DNA of 54,768 nt from Lachnospiraceae bacterium (GTDB lineage: Bacteria; Bacillota; Clostridia; Lachnospirales; Lachnospiraceae), in the NCBI GenBank assembly GCA_028721415.1, contig JAQYIU010000059.1:1-54768 (forward strand), written 5' to 3'. Positions 13,397-47,175 of the stretch are shown here, piece by piece (within the stretch, counting starts at the first letter, position 1; the number at the start of each line of letters is the position of its first letter). Made by a program: the position numbers and the translations under genes. The notes beneath the pieces were generated by a model. It worked only from the letters and a program-made list of their open reading frames with translations, was not told the DNA's origin and did no database searches.

Positions 13397-13410
13397 ATTC
13401 ATTTGACAGG

Positions 13411-13439
13411 TTTACAAATGGAAAAAAGTTTCGTATAAT
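13411..13439 (+). promoter_or_regulatory. Promoter of the DUF896 gene
   Basis: TTTACA (13411-13416), 17 bases, TATAAT (13434-13439), about 43 bases ahead of the ATG. A TTGACA eight bases further upstream is too far from this -10. Confidence 0.65.
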
Positions 13440-13481
13440 GTCAAAGAACATTTTGAAACATATGAGGAGAGTATATATTAA

Positions 13482-13706
13482 ATGAATCAAAAAAATATTG
13501 ATCGTATTAATGAGTTATATCATAAGTCAAAGAATGAAGGTTTGACTCCGGAGGAGGCAGCGGAGCAGAAGAAGCTGCGTCAGGATTATATTCAGGCGAT
13601 CCGTCGGAATCTTCGGGGGTCTCTCAATAATATTTCCATAGAAGAAAAGGATGGTTCGATTACCAACCTTGGAGAAAAATATGGAAGGAAATTCAAAGAA
13701 AACTAG
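13482..13706 (+). CDS. DUF896 family protein (YnzC-like)
   Basis: 74 residues; ATG at 13482 after GAGGAGAG. The sequence INELYHKSKNEGLTPEEAAEQKKLRQDYIQ is the two-helix hairpin defining DUF896; the rest is a short charged tail. In Bacillus a member lies in the SOS yneA-ynzC operon, but no LexA-like site was recognised here. Soluble, function unknown. Confidence 0.92.
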   Translation: MNQKNIDRINELYHKSKNEGLTPEEAAEQKKLRQDYIQAIRRNLRGSLNNISIEEKDGSITNLGEKYGRKFKEN

Positions 13707-13741
13707 CCGATAAGGCGTACAATCACAGGGAGGTGAATTTC

Positions 13742-13834
13742 ATGGACAGTTGCGATAGTACGGGACGAAGTACCATTAACGGTGGTAATAACAGAGCGAT
13801 ACTATGGATGCAGTCTGTTGTGAAATTTCCTTAG
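13742..13834 (+). CDS. Possible leader peptide (30 codons) ahead of mgtE
   Basis: ATG at 13742 sits six bases after GGGAGGTG, as good a ribosome site as any gene here. It reads MDSCDSTGRSTINGG, then NNRAILWMQSVVKFP and TAG. The antiterminator strand ACGGTGGTAA falls in codons 13-16, so a ribosome here would block or free that pairing. No homolog is recognised. It could instead be a chance ORF inside a structured RNA; the ribosome site and placement are the only support. Confidence 0.4.
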   Translation: MDSCDSTGRSTINGGNNRAILWMQSVVKFP

Positions 13835-13863
13835 ATTGTAGTCTTTTTTGGTTGCCTTTTTAC

Positions 13864-13947
13864 CACCGTGTTCGGTAATTCCTATACTTCACAACCGGTA
13901 ACTGGAGTTGATGTCAGGAATTATGGGAGACGGTGTTTTTCTTTTTT
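13864..13947 (+). terminator. Terminator arm of the mgtE leader
   Basis: CACCGT (13864-13869) pairs with ACGGTG (13930-13935), AATTCCT (13877-13883) with AGGAATT (13916-13922), and there is an inner CAAC/GTTG hairpin. A T-run TTTTTCTTTTTT (13936-13947) follows at once. Confidence 0.7.
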
Positions 13948-13997
13948 AGAAATTCTTCTGGGAAGACGCACTGTTTTCCAAAGAAATGGAGGCAATC

Positions 13998-14860
13998 ATG
14001 GAAAAAGAAATTTTAAAAGAACCAAATTATGAAAAAGAGCTGGTACAGATTATCCGCGGCGGACTCAGTGATGAGGATCTGATGGAGCATCTGTCCAATT
14101 ATCATGAAAATGATATTGCTGGTGCGCTGGAACAGTTAACCCCGGAAGAAAGAGACTCTATCCGGTTCTCAGGGAAGACAGAACCATTGTCGGAATCATC
14201 ACTGCTCAGGATATTGTGGAAGTGGTAGACGAAGAGATGGGAGACGACTATGCGAAGCTGGCTGGTCTGACTGCCGAAGAAGATCTGAAAGAAACTACCA
14301 TTGAGAGTATGAAAAAAAGGTTGCCTTGGTTGATCGTGTTGTTGTTCCTTGGAATGGCGGTTTCTTCTGTGGTCGGTATTTTCGAGACTGTGGTGGCGGT
14401 GCTTCCGATCGTCATGTGCTTTCAGTCACTGATTCTCGATATGGCCGGTAATGTGGGTACCCAGTCTCTGGCGGTAACAATCCGTGTGCTAATGGATGAA
14501 AATCTGACTACAACCCAGAAGATGGGTCTTGTGGTAAAAGAGATGCGGGTCGGTTTTTCCAACGGTCTGTTTTTGGGAATTTTGGCATTCCTTTTTATTG
14601 GATTGTATGTGTTTCTGTTTAAACACAATCCGCTCGGTCAAGCGTTCCTGATCTTCGGCTGTGTTGGAATGGCCCTGCTGGTAGCTATGGTGATTTCCAG
14701 TATGGTAGGAACCCTGATTCCGATGTTTTTCCACAAGATAAAGGTGGATCCGGCTGTGGCATCGGGACCGCTGATCACAACGGTTAATGACCTTGTGGCA
14801 GTCATCACCTATTATGGTCTAGCCTGGCTTCTTTTAATTAATGTGATGCAAATGATATAA
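13998..14860 (+). pseudogene. mgtE: Magnesium transporter MgtE, internally deleted
   Basis: The start ATG (13998, after GGAGGC) opens an MgtE N-domain (LSNYHENDIAGALEQLTPEERD) that breaks at about residue 54. The sequence then resumes in another frame inside the second CBS domain (LREDRTIVGIITAQDIVEVV) and runs through the complete five-helix membrane domain (LPIVMCFQSLILDMAGNVGTQSL ... VNDLVAVITYYG). Compared with a normal MgtE of about 450 residues, most of the N-domain, CBS1 and half of CBS2, roughly 200 residues, are missing. The Mg-gating regulatory domain is therefore lost and the frame is broken. The membrane half is intact and could only be made from an internal start. Confidence 0.85.
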
Positions 14861-14875
14861 CAGGAGGCAAAAGGT

Positions 14876-15442
14876 ATGCCGGAATTTATTGATAAAAATA
14901 CATTACGAAAACAAATGAAACAAAAGCGCAATACTCTCAATAAAGAAGAGCGCATAGAAGCGGCAGAGGGCTGCCTGCAGCAGCTTAGGCAAGTGCCCGG
15001 ATATGAACAGGTTTCATGGATGTACTGTTATATGTCCTACCTTTCGGAATTGGATACCCGGCGGATGATAGAGATTTTTTTGAAAGAAGGAAAGAGAGTT
15101 GCCGTGCCAAAGGTGCAGGGAACGGAGATGGATTTTTATGAGATCTTGGCTCTGTCAGATTGTGTGAACGGAGCCTTTGGCATACTGGAACCGACGGGGG
15201 ATAATGAGCCGATAACCGAAGCCGGTTGGATTCTGATGCCCGGACTGGCCTTCGACCTTCAGGGAAATCGACTGGGATATGGTGGTGGTTTCTATGATAA
15301 ATATCTGGAAAAACAGGATAATCTGGTGAAAATTGCCCTTGCCTATGACTTCCAGGTGATCCCGACTGTATCTGCAGAAATATTTGATCAGCCGGTAGAT
15401 TATATTGTGACACCGGAAAGAATCTTTAAAACGAAACCTTAA
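14876..15442 (+). CDS. 5-formyltetrahydrofolate cyclo-ligase
   Basis: 188 residues; ATG at 14876 after AGGAGG. It begins with the family pattern LRKQMKQKRNTLNKEER. The ATP/Mg-binding C-terminal motif PGLAFDLQGNRLGYGGGFYDKYL lies at about residues 122-144. The enzyme converts 5-formyl-THF to 5,10-methenyl-THF, returning stored folate to the one-carbon pool. Length is normal. It follows the mgtE remnant by 15 bases and probably shares its transcript. Confidence 0.95.
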   Translation: MPEFIDKNTLRKQMKQKRNTLNKEERIEAAEGCLQQLRQVPGYEQVSWMYCYMSYLSELDTRRMIEIFLKEGKRVAVPKVQGTEMDFYEILALSDCVNGAFGILEPTGDNEPITEAGWILMPGLAFDLQGNRLGYGGGFYDKYLEKQDNLVKIALAYDFQVIPTVSAEIFDQPVDYIVTPERIFKTKP

Positions 15443-15474
15443 ATCCGAACCGATCGCAATCAGGGGGGCATGAA

Positions 15475-15968
<494 letters not shown>

Positions 15969-16024
15969 AAAAATAAAATTAAGATGAAGTATTCTTCTTT
16001 TCTGGAAAAAGATTCAAAAAAAAC

Positions 16025-16053
16025 TTGATAAAATAAATCTGCGGTGCTATACT
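16025..16053 (+). promoter_or_regulatory. Promoter of the rimP-nusA-infB operon
   Basis: TTGATA (16025-16030), 17 bases, then TATACT (16048-16053) with an extended TGC just before it. Transcription would start near 16060, leaving a leader of about 115 bases that carries the hairpin below. Confidence 0.75.
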
Positions 16054-16078
16054 ATATAAGAATACTGTAGACGATGAC

Positions 16079-16102
16079 AAGAGTGGGCGTTCGCCCACTC
16101 TT
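16079..16102 (+). promoter_or_regulatory. Leader hairpin ahead of rimP
   Basis: AAGAGTGGGC (16079-16088) pairs perfectly with GCCCACTCTT (16093-16102) around a four-base loop. Only TTATTGT follows, so it is a poor terminator. It may be an mRNA-processing or NusA-autoregulatory structure (inference). Confidence 0.6.
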
Positions 16103-16174
16103 ATTGTATGTTATGAATTGTAAAGCTCGAAAAGAATTCGCGGGCGAATGACATGGAAAGAAGGTGAGAACAAC

Positions 16175-16636
16175 ATGAAAAGAACAGAGATTGTTGAAAG
16201 AGTAGAAGAACTGGTCACCCCGATCATTGACGAGAATGATTTTGAGCTTGTTGATGTAGAATATGTAAAAGAGGGAGCGAACTGGTATCTCCGTGTGTAT
16301 GCAGATAAAGATGGAGGAATTACCATTGATGACTGTGTGCTCATCAGCCGTGCCCTGGAGCAGAAGCTGGATGAAGAAGATTTCATTCAGGATGCCTATA
16401 TTCTGGAAGTAAGTTCCCCGGGACTGGGAAGGCAGCTGAAGAAAGACAAGGACTTTAAGAGAAGCCTTGGTGAGAAGGTGGAATGTAAATTATTTAAGGC
16501 CATCAATAAACAGAAGGAATTTGAAGGCATTTTAAAGGATTTTACGGAAGAAACCATCACATTGGGAATAGATGAAGCAGAGCAAATTATAAATAGAAAA
16601 GAAATTGCCATGATTCGTCTGGCAATCGATTTCTGA
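16175..16636 (+). CDS. rimP: Ribosome maturation factor RimP
   Basis: 153 residues from the ATG at 16175 (AAGGTGAG upstream); an in-frame ATG at 16151 lacks a ribosome site. The N-domain VDVEYVKEGANWYLRVYADK and GGITIDDCVLISRALEQKLDEED, and the motif LEVSSPGLGRQLKKDKDF, are characteristic. It assists late 30S subunit assembly. It heads the conserved rimP-nusA-rnpM-ylxQ-infB cluster, 31 bases before nusA. Confidence 0.96.
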   Translation: MKRTEIVERVEELVTPIIDENDFELVDVEYVKEGANWYLRVYADKDGGITIDDCVLISRALEQKLDEEDFIQDAYILEVSSPGLGRQLKKDKDFKRSLGEKVECKLFKAINKQKEFEGILKDFTEETITLGIDEAEQIINRKEIAMIRLAIDF

Positions 16637-16667
16637 GAATACCAGAAAGGTAGGAGGATAAGAAAAA

Positions 16668-17843
16668 ATGAGTGAATTAATCGATGCTCTTAATCAGTTA
16701 CAGAAAGAAAAAAACATCGAGAAAGAAGTAATCATGCAGGCCATTGAAGATTCTTTAGTTGCAGCATGTAACAGAGATTTCGGAAAGAATGCCATTGTTA
16801 AAGTGAATATGGATCGTATCACAGGCGATATTTCTGTTTTTGTTGAAAAAACAGTTGTGGAGGAAGTAGAAGATCCTGCTACAGAGATCAGTCTGGAAGA
16901 TGCAAAAATGATTCAGTTCCGCTATGATCTTGGAGATATCGTGAACATTGAAGTGACTCCGAAAAATTTTGGACGAATTGCCGCACAACATGCAAGAAGT
17001 GTCATTGTTCAGAAGATTAAGGAAGAAGAGCGACGTGTTCTGTTCCAGCATTTCTCACATAAAGAGAAAGATATCGTGACAGGTGTAGTACAGCGCTTTA
17101 ATGGAAAGAATATCTGTATCAGTCTCGATGACAAGACCGATGCGGTGCTTACAGAAAAAGAGCAGGTGAAGGGAGAAGTATTCCATCCGACCGACCGTAT
17201 TAAATTATATATTATCGAAGTAAAAGATACCAATAAAGGACCGAAGATTCTCGTTTCGAGAACCCATCCGGAACTGGTAAAACGTCTTTTCGAAAAAGAG
17301 GTTGCCGAGGTATATGATGGAACCGTGGAAATTAAGAGCATTGCCCGTGAGGCAGGATCCAGAACAAAGATTGCAGTGGCATCCAACGATCCGAATGTGG
17401 ATCCGGTTGGAGCATGTGTCGGTTTAAATGGTGCTCGTGTCAATGCAATTGTGAATGATCTTCAGGGAGAGAAGATTGATATCATCACATGGGATGATGA
17501 CCCTGCAACCTTAATTGAAAATGCTCTAAGTCCATCCAATGTTGTTTCTGTAGATGTGGATGAGGAAGAAAAGAGTGCAAAAGTAGTTGTTCCGGATTAC
17601 CAGTTATCTCTTGCCATCGGTAAAGAAGGACAGAATGCTCGTCTGGCAGCTAAACTTACCGGATATAAGATTGATATCAAGAGTGAGAGTCAGGCAGCAG
17701 AATTGGAAGAAGAACTGGATTTTGAAGACGATTTTGATATGGGTGATTCTTCCACAGATTTCATGGACAGTGAAACAGAAGAGATGACAGAAGATTTTAT
17801 GGAAGAAGATTTGGAAGAGTCTGTTCCGGAAATAGAAGAATAA
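16668..17843 (+). CDS. nusA: Transcription termination/antitermination factor NusA
   Basis: 391 residues. An RNAP-binding N-domain occupies residues 1-125, followed by an S1 domain (about 135-200) and tandem KH domains (about 205-345, including [25 protein letters not shown] and [19 protein letters not shown]). A strongly acidic tail (about 348-391, [16 protein letters not shown]-like) replaces the repeat domains of proteobacterial NusA. It modulates pausing and termination on RNA polymerase. The ATG at 16668 follows TAGGAGG. Confidence 0.97.
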
Positions 17844-18444: not shown

Positions 18445-21138
18445 ATGCCAAAAATGAGAGTACATGAAGTAGCAAAATTATTAAATAAAAGCAGTAAAGA
18501 AATCATCGCTGCCTTAAAGCAGCAGGGAATAGAAGTACAGAGTCACATGAGCACGGTTACGGAGGAAAATATTGCAAAAGTGAAATCGCATTTTCATCCG
18601 GCAGAACCGGCAAAAAAACCGGAACCGGCACAGCCTGTAGATAAGACAAAAGCTCGGGAAAAAGAGCAGCCAAAAGAAACAGTGAAGAAAAAAGAGGATA
18701 ACATACAAAGAGAAATGAGAGAGAAACGTCCGGAAGGCCGCAGAGAATTCTCCAGAGACGGTCGCAATGATAATAACAACCGTAATGGCAGAAATAATGA
18801 CGGCAACCGCAATTTCAATAATCGCAATAATGATGGAAACCGTGGCGGCAGAAATAGCGAGGACGGTAACCGTAATTTCAATAATCGCAATAACGATGGC
18901 AATCGTAACGGCAGAAATAATGACGGCAATCGTAATTTCAATAACCGCAATAACGATGGTAACCGTAATGGCAGAAATAATGACGGCAACCGTAATTTCA
19001 ATAACCGCAATAATGATGGCAATCGTGGAGGCAGAAATAATGAAGACGGCAGTCGTAATTTCAATAATCGTAATAACGATGGCAATCGTAACGGCAGAAA
19101 CAATGACAGAAGAAACCGCACCAAATCTGTCTTAGGTGGCGATACCCCAATCAACGCAAAAGAGACAAGAAACGGAAAAGAAAACCGTCATGACATTAAC
19201 CGTGAACACAGTCGCGACAATAATAATCGTAATAATGATGGTAATCGTGGCGGAAAGAATAATCGTCGGAATAACAATAATAACAGCCGCAAAGACGGAT
19301 ATAATACGATGCAGAAACGTCCGAAGAATAAGGTAAAACAGCCGGTTGTTCAGCCACCGAAGCAGGAAGAGCCAAAGGAAGATGTAATCCGTAACATTAC
19401 CCTTCCAAATCCGGTATCCCTGAAAGATCTTGCAGAAGCATGTAAGGTCACTCCTGCTGTCATCATCAAAAAGCTTTTCCTTGCAGGACAGATGGTTACA
19501 ATTAATACAGAATTTCCTTTCGAAGAAGCAGCAGAAATCGCTTTGGAATATAACTGTATTGCAGAAGAAGAAGTAAAGGTTGACGTGATTGAAGAACTTC
19601 TGAAAGAGGAAGAAGAGGATGAGAGCAATCTGGCAGGTCGTCCTCCGGTTGTCTGCGTTATGGGTCACGTTGACCATGGTAAGACCTCTCTTCTGGATGC
19701 CATCCGTTCCACTCATGTCACAGAAGGAGAAGCTGGTGGAATCACCCAGCATATCGGTGCATATGTGGTAAATATTAACGATGAAAAGATTACTTTCCTG
19801 GATACTCCGGGACATGAAGCATTTACTTCCATGAGACTTCGTGGTGCACAGGCAACGGATATCGCGGTACTTGTTGTAGCTGCCGATGACGGTGTTATGC
19901 CTCAGACGATTGAGGCGATCAACCATGCCAAAGCCGCTGAAGTTGAAGTAATTGTTGCTGTAAACAAAATTGATAAAGAAGGTGCAAATGTCGATCGTGT
20001 AAAACAGGAGCTTACCGAATACGGTCTGATTGCGGAAGACTGGGGCGGAAGTACCGTATTTGTTCCGGTTTCTGCAAAAACAGGAGAAGGTATCGAAGAA
20101 CTGCTTGAAATGATCACTCTTACCGCGGAAGTATTGGAATTGAAAGCCAATCCAAACAGAAAAGCGAGAGGTCTTGTCATTGAGGCAAAACTGGATAAAG
20201 GACGTGGTCCGGTTGCCACAATCCTGATTCAGAAAGGTACCCTTCATGTAGGAGATGCCATCAATATCGGGCATGCTTACGGACGTGTTCGTGCCATGTT
20301 AGATGATAAAGGAAATCGTGTAAAAGAGGCAGGTCCTTCAGTTCCTGTTGAGATTTTAGGTCTTAATGATGTACCGTTCTCCGGCGAAGTTATGATGGCT
20401 CACGATAATGAGAAAGAAGCTCGTACCACAGCAGATGCCTTTATTGCATATGGCAGAGAAAAAATGCTCGAAGAGACCAAGAGCAAACTTTCTCTGGATG
20501 ATTTGTTTGATCAGATTCAGGCAGGAAATGTCAAAGAACTGAATCTTGTTGTAAAAGCGGATGTTCAGGGCTCAGTGGAAGCGGTTAAACAGAGTTTAAT
20601 GAAGCTTTCCAATGAGGAAGTTATGATCAAAGTGATCCATGGTGGTGTTGGTGCCATCAATGAATCCGACGTTACTCTGGCTTCTGCTTCCAATGCGATC
20701 ATCATCGGATTTAATGTTCGTCCGGATGCCATGGCAAAATCCGTTGCAGAGCGTGAAAAAGTAGATATGAGATTATATCGTGTCATCTACAATGCTATTG
20801 AAGATATCGAGGCAGCGATCAAAGGTATGCTGGATCCTGTGTTCCGTGAAAAAGTCATCGGACATGTGGAAGTTCGTCAGACTTATAAAGCATCCGGTGT
20901 CGGAACCATCGCCGGCTGTTATGTCCTTGACGGAATGATCAGCAGAGCTTCTCAGGTTCGTATCGTCCGTGACGGTATTGTAATCTACGAGGGAACTCTG
21001 GCATCCTTAAAACGTTTTAAAGATGATGTAAAAGAAGTAAAATCCGGTTTCGAATGTGGTCTTGTATTTGAAAAATATAATGATGTGAAAGAAGGAGACC
21101 AGGTAGAAGCCTTTATTATGGAAGAAATTCCAAGATAA
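18445..21138 (+). CDS. infB: Translation initiation factor IF-2 with repeat-expanded N-terminus
   Basis: 897 residues. The N-terminal IF2N helix bundle ([33 protein letters not shown]) is followed by a Lys/Glu linker, a long Asn/Arg/Gly/Asp repeat tract (residues about 109-222) and a second low-complexity stretch to about 310. The second IF2N domain then appears ([22 protein letters not shown]). The GTPase is complete: [12 protein letters not shown] (G1), DTPGHEAF (G3), NKID (G4), SAK (G5). Domains II-IV follow. It delivers fMet-tRNA to the 30S subunit. The ATG at 18445 follows GGAGG. Confidence 0.97.
18769..19110 (+). repeat. Coding tandem repeat in infB (Asn/Arg/Gly/Asp-rich)
   Basis: About six units of 60-66 bp encode variants of [20 protein letters not shown] (20 residues), some with an extra ED ([14 protein letters not shown]). 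Copies differ at many silent sites. It encodes a disordered, strongly basic tract. Not a CRISPR: units are contiguous and in frame. Confidence 0.85.
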
Positions 21139-46893: not shown

Positions 46894-47175
46894 ACAAAAA
46901 ATCCCCTCCAGGCAAATACCTGAAAGGGACGAAAGATTCCGCGTTACCACCCATATTCCGGAATAGAACATTCCGACACTCAACGTACTATCATACGCTT
47001 TCCCTTTAACGGAGGATCCCGGCGTAACTTACTCGTATATACTTTCAGCATGCTTCTTGGAGAGGATATCCGTATAAAGCAGACTACCTGTTCGCATCAA
47101 CCACAGGCTCTCTGTCAGACTACATAAATACGGCATTGTTCTCGTCAACGAATTTCGGTGAACCATATTTTATCT
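46894..47175 (-). ncRNA. T-box riboswitch controlling the BASS transporter
   Basis: On the minus strand the T-box core GGGTGGTAACGCGG (plus 46939-46952) is followed by a terminator (TCCCTTTCAGG / CCTGGAGGGGA, T-run; plus 46895-46929). The Stem I apical motif AGAGAGCC lies at plus 47106-47113, closed by CCTGT/ACAGG. A lower helix CCGTA/TACGG (plus 47129-47133 with 47070-47074) frames the specifier loop. The loop 3' side reads GCTTTA, so UUU (Phe) followed by A is the best-placed codon, but this is tentative. UGGU in the T-box fits a tRNA with A73. The antiterminator and terminator are mutually exclusive. Confidence 0.9.

Follow-up and report, generated by a model that had tools for sequence, protein, structure and literature searches.

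An open reading frame (ORF) with the peptide start M-D-S-C-D-S-x-G-R-S lies ahead of mgtE in the Lachnospiraceae and also, within the same class, in five or more further families, and it probably acts as a ribosome-mediated attenuator of that gene, with low Mg2+ as the most likely signal. As judged from sequence comparison, this is a new and widespread family of the ribosome-mediated attenuator, itself a known kind of device; a full-text literature search, with supplements and most subscription papers outside its scope, returned no description of an MDSCDSxGRS-mgtE leader. The leader was recognized in a stretch of 54,768 nucleotides from a Lachnospiraceae bacterium (contig JAQYIU010000059.1 of assembly GCA_028721415.1), hereafter the window. 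A preliminary description of this DNA had noted a small ORF overlapping a terminator/antiterminator pair and had offered two readings, a different Mg-responsive RNA or a leader-peptide attenuator; its observation was correct, and even understated. The second reading is now strongly supported by the conserved start, Shine-Dalgarno (SD) sequence and amino acids, by a concentration of pairing at nt 34-48 of the ORF and by compensatory changes. Sequence analysis shows coding constraint on the ORF, competing pairings, a conserved position for the antiterminator strand (segment B) and a link with mgtE.

The elements of the leader are collected in Table 1. As had been described, the ORF is preceded by the SD sequence GGGAGGTG and contains B (ACGGTGGTAA), a perfect complement of segment C (TTACCACCGT), with which it paired in the predicted folds. 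The CACCGT of C doubles as the 5' end of a long hairpin with bulges, the 3' end of which, ACGGTG, is followed by TTTTTCTTTTTT, and the claim that a terminator competes for the same segment was upheld, none of 200 shuffled sequences folding as stably as this hairpin. The whole window leader was equaled by 2 of 200 shuffles (z -2.79) and the antiterminator part alone (13726-13876) by 18 of 200 (z -1.48). Given that the antiterminator is unremarkable in a single sequence, the case for this half of the device depends on the comparison of relatives.

Table 1. Features of the mgtE leader and its surroundings in the window
Feature	Position	Strand	Basis
Sigma-A-like promoter 5' of the DUF896 gene	13411..13439	+	TTTACA-17-TATAAT, 11/12; consensus only
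DUF896 gene, upstream of the leader	13482..13706	+	PF05979, E 3.3e-22
Shine-Dalgarno GGGAGGTG of the leader ORF	13728..13735	+	sequence; kept in relatives
Leader ORF, 30 codons, MDSCDSTGRSTINGGNNRAILWMQSVVKFP	13742..13834	+	sequence; relatives
Conserved codons 1-10 (MDSCDSxGRS); Arg9 = CGA at 13766-13768	13742..13771	+	
Segment B, antiterminator strand within the leader ORF	13779..13788	+	10-bp complement of 13860-13869
Segment C, predicted partner of B (ON) or D (OFF), downstream of the ORF stop	13860..13869	+	
Intrinsic terminator hairpin; 3' end = segment D (ACGGTG)	13864..13935	+	-32.4 kcal/mol, z -4.92
Terminator U tract	13936..13947	+	sequence
mgtE, broken by 528-bp and 4-bp deletions relative to congener G158 (L004/L044)	13998..14860	+	

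The statement that the leader stands ahead of mgtE held with one correction: mgtE does follow (PF01769 match in 14216-14860, with pieces matched by tblastn), but the gene is not intact. Relative to the congener, 528 bp have been lost in this assembly between two TCCGGTTCTC repeats in the region 14150-14180 and a further 4 bp just upstream of that gap, so that the N- and C-terminal parts are out of frame (ORFs 13986-14228 and 14216-14860). The leader itself is intact despite these deletions, and in this lineage it may belong to a transcript from the promoter 5' of the DUF896 gene.

Within the genus, a DNA search recovered the leader from 4 of 24 genomes (the window's own, G158, G153 and G152), which have in common an ORF beginning MDSCDS. 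Across the family, a 17-base start pattern was found at 20 places, in 19 of 397 genomes and 18 of 334 genera; a reversed-pattern control gave one place among the matches listed. One of the 20 places (L023) was rejected as spurious, having neither SD nor mgtE, and at another (L018) no MgtE match was found within 1.5 kb downstream; in the latter (G390:C78) the leader is kept and is followed by a short mgtE-like start (MMREVLK) and then by an unrelated gene. A longer pattern identified 51 loci in named genomes, and the Mg2+ transporter gene mgtE lies directly downstream in 47 of them. The remaining four are cut off 47-224 nt past the ORF start; L075 and L076 share contigs with L020 and L011, where mgtE follows, and L077 shares one with L018, where it does not. 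Genera carrying the leader include Anaerobutyricum, Coprococcus, Hominisplanchenecus and Oribacterium.

A second sampling was anchored on mgtE and comprised 180 family genomes, the window's own included and the others at least 90% complete. The MgtE matches fell into a close type I (at least 49% identity, 57 copies besides that of the window) and a distant type II (about 28% among the matches listed). The DNA preceding mgtE was inspected for 56 type I copies, the copy of G039 being left out as it stands at a contig start with no upstream DNA and those of L101, L121 and L132 having less than 800 nt, and for 34 type II controls, drawn from the first 37 listed with G135 and G068 (in-frame stops) and G069 (partial match) skipped. 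When the upstreams were scored simply on SD and peptide start, a value of at least 4 was reached by 21/56 type I versus 0/34 type II upstreams, the best of the latter scoring 3.0. Eight weaker type I leaders were added by eye, giving 29 in total; no leader was recognized at first in 27 of the 56 copies, with four diverged ones being seen later, and type I copies having a leader could not be told apart from those lacking one by their spacing from the preceding gene. The peptide variants encountered included MDNCDS, MDGSDS, MDKCDS, MDKSDS, MDSPDG and MEGCDN. Downstream of L010 and L034, the MgtE match starts at query residue 129 and the N-terminal domain seems absent, and G114:C53 carries a tandem pair of type I copies at 14027-16901. 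Leader-like ORFs with the triad of pairings defined below precede type II mgtE genes at L137 (G024:C37; MDSSPGRSRQ, with a TTG start, picked by eye) and L144 (G124:C99; MDGNSDRSRY).

A profile of the SD and codons 1-11, applied to 392 genomes of the class, gave ten matches with E <1e-3 besides the window, nine of them preceding an MgtE gene. Seven (L174-L180) belong to families f5, f18, f40 and f49, L181 to family f26, with a distant MgtE downstream, and L172 to the window's own family; the tenth, L182, had neither SD nor MgtE. Most weaker matches in the class appear to be due to chance. Across the phylum (348 genomes), the three matches with E <=0.01 were the window and two others (0.0081 and 0.0097), about the chance expectation, and a tblastn search of plasmids with the peptide returned only matches of E 6, in four Arsenophonus records.

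Pairing was compared in 78 leaders (87 minus duplicates, L023 and L018 excluded). The mgtE-anchored set contributed 22 of these; several of the 22 had been assigned by eye, and L137 and L144 among them stand ahead of type II mgtE. Helices formed by ORF nt 27-75 with the leader further 3' had an energy of -19.7 for a leader's own partner versus -15.2 for swapped partners, a contrast attained in none of 20,000 permutations; orientation controls gave z values of -0.8, -0.6 and -2.9, the last of these, for the other strand, being not quite null (matched by 49/20,000). Measured against shuffles, mean downstream pairing amounted to z -2.66 for nt 33-55, -0.68 for nt 55-75 and -0.26 for the SD, and in sliding windows (n=78) its maximum was at start positions nt 34 (z -2.2) and nt 37 (z -2.3). 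Hence both a conserved mean position and specificity of pairing characterize segment B across relatives. The conserved codons themselves (1-6, 4-10 and 7-11) did not pair downstream beyond shuffles in the 78 leaders (z -0.02 to -0.08). In the window fold, the ORF start (GTTGYGATAGT) pairs with a region 3' of C, ACTTCACAAC; across the set this pairing was likewise within chance, and it was discarded.

A triad was defined as a C segment able to pair with both B and a D arm, the latter either running out into a U tract or masking the mgtE SD. A triad score of at least 14 was obtained for 42 of the 78 leaders versus 8.6 expected from swapped B zones, and a leader's own triad exceeded all 14 swaps in 23/78 and the median swap in 62/78; at a threshold of 10 the contrast was small (69 versus 55.8). 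The automatic triad table (78 rows) is permissive, and weight was placed on the permutation, swap and sliding-window tests. In 24 leaders with a CGRTGG/CCAYCG-like core, a variable pair was G-C in 8, A-U in 12, G-U in 3 and A-C in 1 (Fisher p 0.002, uncorrected for kinship), the G-C/A-U changes being compensatory; covariation in relatives had been proposed as a check. In L007, L015, L021 and L031, C pairs with the mgtE SD region and not with a terminator arm, according to the automatic search; L016 was judged by eye to be of this SD-hiding kind, the search having picked another triad. The picture outside the family is mixed: for seven leaders from there plus L191 from within the family, the search labels were T in 2, SD in 5 and neither in 1, several being weak, and L174, one of the outsiders, has the terminator form by eye. 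The B:C helix is also weak in L036, L039, L052, L054 and L058. An ORF strand thus contributes to an antiterminator in these leaders, and the competing structure is a terminator or an SD hairpin, but this feature is not strong everywhere.

We infer how the leader would work: its translation, the behavior of the ribosome, the Mg2+ signal, the direction of regulation and the roles of CGA and of Asp. The ORF would be translated while it is being transcribed. If ribosomes are lost or stopped within about the first nine codons (MDSCDSxG-R), B would be left free and would bind C, thereby blocking the terminator or, in certain relatives, the SD-hiding hairpin of mgtE, and mgtE would be ON; if ribosomes advance, B would be covered, C:D would form, and mgtE would be OFF. 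The proposal is that a nascent chain bearing Asp2 and Asp5 destabilizes the ribosome while still short if Mg2+ is low, with the fixed CGA at codon 9 perhaps assisting. A ribosome with this CGA in its A site would have its front edge near nt 36-37, given the usual toeprint distance, and B is predicted to start near the front edge of a ribosome decoding that codon. Low Mg2+ is the likely though unproven best guess for the signal, in view of the conservation of Asp2 and Asp5 and the link with mgtE.

Partition-function folding of 12 leaders, hand-picked from the strong triads and with a ribosome imitated by blocked bases, was applied to this scheme. With B covered, C:D formed in 12/12 (0.60-0.96), and with C just emerged, B:C formed in 12/12 (0.55-1.00); at full length with the ribosome absent, B:C was favored in 7/12 and C:D in 5/12. 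For the window leader, covering B in silico changed B:C 0.65/C:D 0.32 to 0/0.85. In these models, covering of B would decide the outcome, and the order of synthesis would help B:C. With a ribosome imitated at codon 9, B:C was favored in 5/12 and C:D in 7/12; a pause at CGA alone would therefore be insufficient in the latter unless B:C formed first during transcription, and ribosome loss appears to fit better than a lasting CGA pause. Two further features speak against the proposal. Leader ORFs of 24-49 codons continue about 8-33 codons beyond B, so that a ribosome finishing the ORF would leave B uncovered unless another follows; and the acidity of MDSCDS falls short of that of the enterobacterial motifs.

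The same folding bears on a scheme of opposite sign, in which MDSCDSxGRS is an arrest peptide that stalls the ribosome on B (codons 10-12) at high Mg2+ or with another ligand to favor the terminator, and in which the ribosome, when the signal is absent, continues and leaves B free. Short arrest peptides of comparable length exist, the conserved block stops at codon 10, immediately 5' of B, and full cover of B is what produced C:D in all 12 folded leaders. A pause at CGA9 would, however, sit just short of B, and ordinary translation would also cover B at times, such that additional cover would provide less contrast. We consider arrest unlikely, and early ribosome loss remains the preferred account.

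Examination of codon conservation in the ORF, which had also been proposed, revealed a conserved peptide with variable third positions. In the 29 leaders of the mgtE-anchored set, Asp2 and Asp5 were each found in 25, Ser6 and Arg9 in 22, Cys4 in 19, and Ser3 and Gly8 in 17; an acidic residue within the first five codons, as in leaders of the MgtL/MgtQ type, is accordingly usual. All four codons were used for Gly8 and both for Asp and for Cys, which indicates that conservation acts on the peptide. The combination of a short ORF and SD conserved as coding sequence, expected of an attenuator, bears on the idea that the ORF start is instead an RNA aptamer or a protein-binding site, with translation incidental. 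Nucleotide conservation there is indeed strong and extends to codon choice, and in L176, where a 1-nt difference shifts CGAAGT out of frame, the letters are kept (the downstream MgtE is 79% identical). Set against this are the variable third positions, the presence of the SD, the lack of local structure in codons 1-10 (mean fold z +0.6) and the lack of pairing with the rest of the leader. These findings render a binding site at the ORF start improbable, and for the same reasons (a conserved part that is unstructured and unpaired downstream, with varying third positions) the earlier suggestion of a different Mg-responsive RNA is disfavored.

Rfam scans also offered no help to an aptamer. No family reached the gathering threshold in the window leader or at 20 related loci (19 with the leader), and a relaxed scan of 13400-14100 to E 10 gave sub-threshold matches to other families only, at E 0.6 or worse; the M-box (RF00380) was absent at gathering level in the window and from the matches to E 10 in that region. 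The preliminary description had seen no recognized riboswitch class and no M-box cores, and the Rfam/Infernal scan it called for agrees. The M-box (ykoK) controls Mg2+ transport genes, often mgtE, via a terminator or SD, and the clostridial leader would resemble it in such control of a Mg2+ transport gene. The leader gives no match to it; in a survey with Infernal's stricter filters, M-boxes were carried by 23 of the 180 family genomes, and by coordinates, among the matches listed, 10 of the 23 lay just 5' of a type II mgtE and none beside type I. A known riboswitch was set aside as a candidate, neither the Rfam scans nor the survey giving it support. In G024, an M-box (105211-105370) and the leader-like ORF L137 precede the same type II mgtE, and the two may represent Mg2+-type devices in tandem.

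Codon usage raises the further question of codon- or amino-acid-specific attenuation, whereby starvation for aminoacyl-tRNA (Arg via CGA, Cys or Ser) would stall the ribosome before B. Arg9 is CGA in 21 of 22 leaders, whereas CGA makes up 6.6% of Arg codons across the 51 loci (long ORFs) and 11.9% across the window, and at Ser 3/6/10 AGT prevails over AGC by 48 to 3, against backgrounds of 16.5 to 17.8% (51 loci) and 21.5 to 12.6% (window). Yet there is a single conserved Arg codon and no regulatory codon run, Cys4 is replaced by Ser, Gly, Pro or His in 10 of the 29 leaders, which disfavors cysteine attenuation in particular, and the gene controlled encodes a Mg2+ channel and not an amino-acid function; starvation is improbable as the signal. 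Finally, chance hairpins beside an ordinary terminator, without regulation, would suit an antiterminator part unremarkable by shuffling and an assembly in which a broken mgtE leaves nothing to regulate, but this is scarcely credible, being contradicted by conservation of the start pattern in 18/334 family genera, by the 51 named loci and by own-partner-specific pairing.

The proposed early loss of ribosomes has its nearest known parallels in the enterobacteria. According to the available text on Salmonella mgtQ-mgtB, this leader is similar in its short ORF, strong SD, acidic positions 2 and 5 and downstream Mg2+ transporter gene; alternative stems hide or free the transporter SD, and early ribosome loss favors expression in the authors' model (PMC8092293). 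Asp2/Glu5 of MgtQ reduce translation of the upstream ORF (uORF) and increase MgtB, with ribosome destabilization being, per the authors, not demonstrated in that study (PMC8092293). As described there, mgtQ differs in having 8 codons and another peptide and in preceding mgtB and not mgtE, and removal of its start codon lowers mgtB since a stem inside the ORF forms (PMC8092293); codons 1-10 of the clostridial leader have no stable local fold, loss of translation is predicted to turn mgtE ON, and many clostridial leaders, unlike mgtQ, would act via intrinsic terminators. In the available text on E. coli mgtL-mgtA, a Mg2+ transporter is similarly placed under a leader peptide with early acidic residues, ribosome drop-off at EPDP at low Mg2+ leading to read-through (PMC11282234). 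The differences there are an EPDP motif with Pro, Rho-dependent termination and a Gram-negative host, and clear dependence on EttA required at least DPEE (PMC11282234). Two further elements appear in the available text of another report: mgtE motif SRC-65-1, also a candidate cis-element 5' of mgtE, is by its description there restricted to Thioalkalivibrio and a structured RNA containing the mgtE start, with no leader peptide described, and the Corynebacterium ilvB-II uORF likewise combines a uORF, terminator and antiterminator, with stalling predicted to favor the antiterminator, but differs in stalling at Ile/Leu/Val codons, in its peptide and in its gene (PMC11109978).

A bolder proposition, which we advance tentatively, is that the leader constitutes a class-wide clostridial Mg2+ sensor in which early ribosome loss on the Asp2/Asp5 chain would be timed by a CGA abutting the antiterminator. 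It would be a Gram-positive counterpart of MgtL/MgtQ that arose independently and in which intrinsic terminators and SD hairpins serve as exchangeable outputs; in G024 it would stand in tandem with an M-box. If so, many clostridia would sense Mg2+ via ribosome stability and not through an RNA aptamer, and intrinsic ribosome destabilization as a sensor, as in enterobacteria, would be a strategy found repeatedly. Direct handles on the way in which Mg2+ might be read by a nascent chain of ten residues would then be offered by the variation among the peptides, by the fixed CGA and by the constant distance to the antiterminator.

Elsewhere in the window, at 15475-15968, the start of a regulator that we take to be LacI-like leads straight into the C terminus of a GH1 glycosidase, and similarity to congener L044 ends at about 15577, which suggests another deletion or junction. 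An 897-aa ORF at 18445-21138, presumably resembling IF-2, carries numerous repeats rich in Asn, Arg and Gly (NNRNNDGNR) in the N-terminal portion, and a T-box leader is located at 46922-47157 on the minus strand (105.9 bits).
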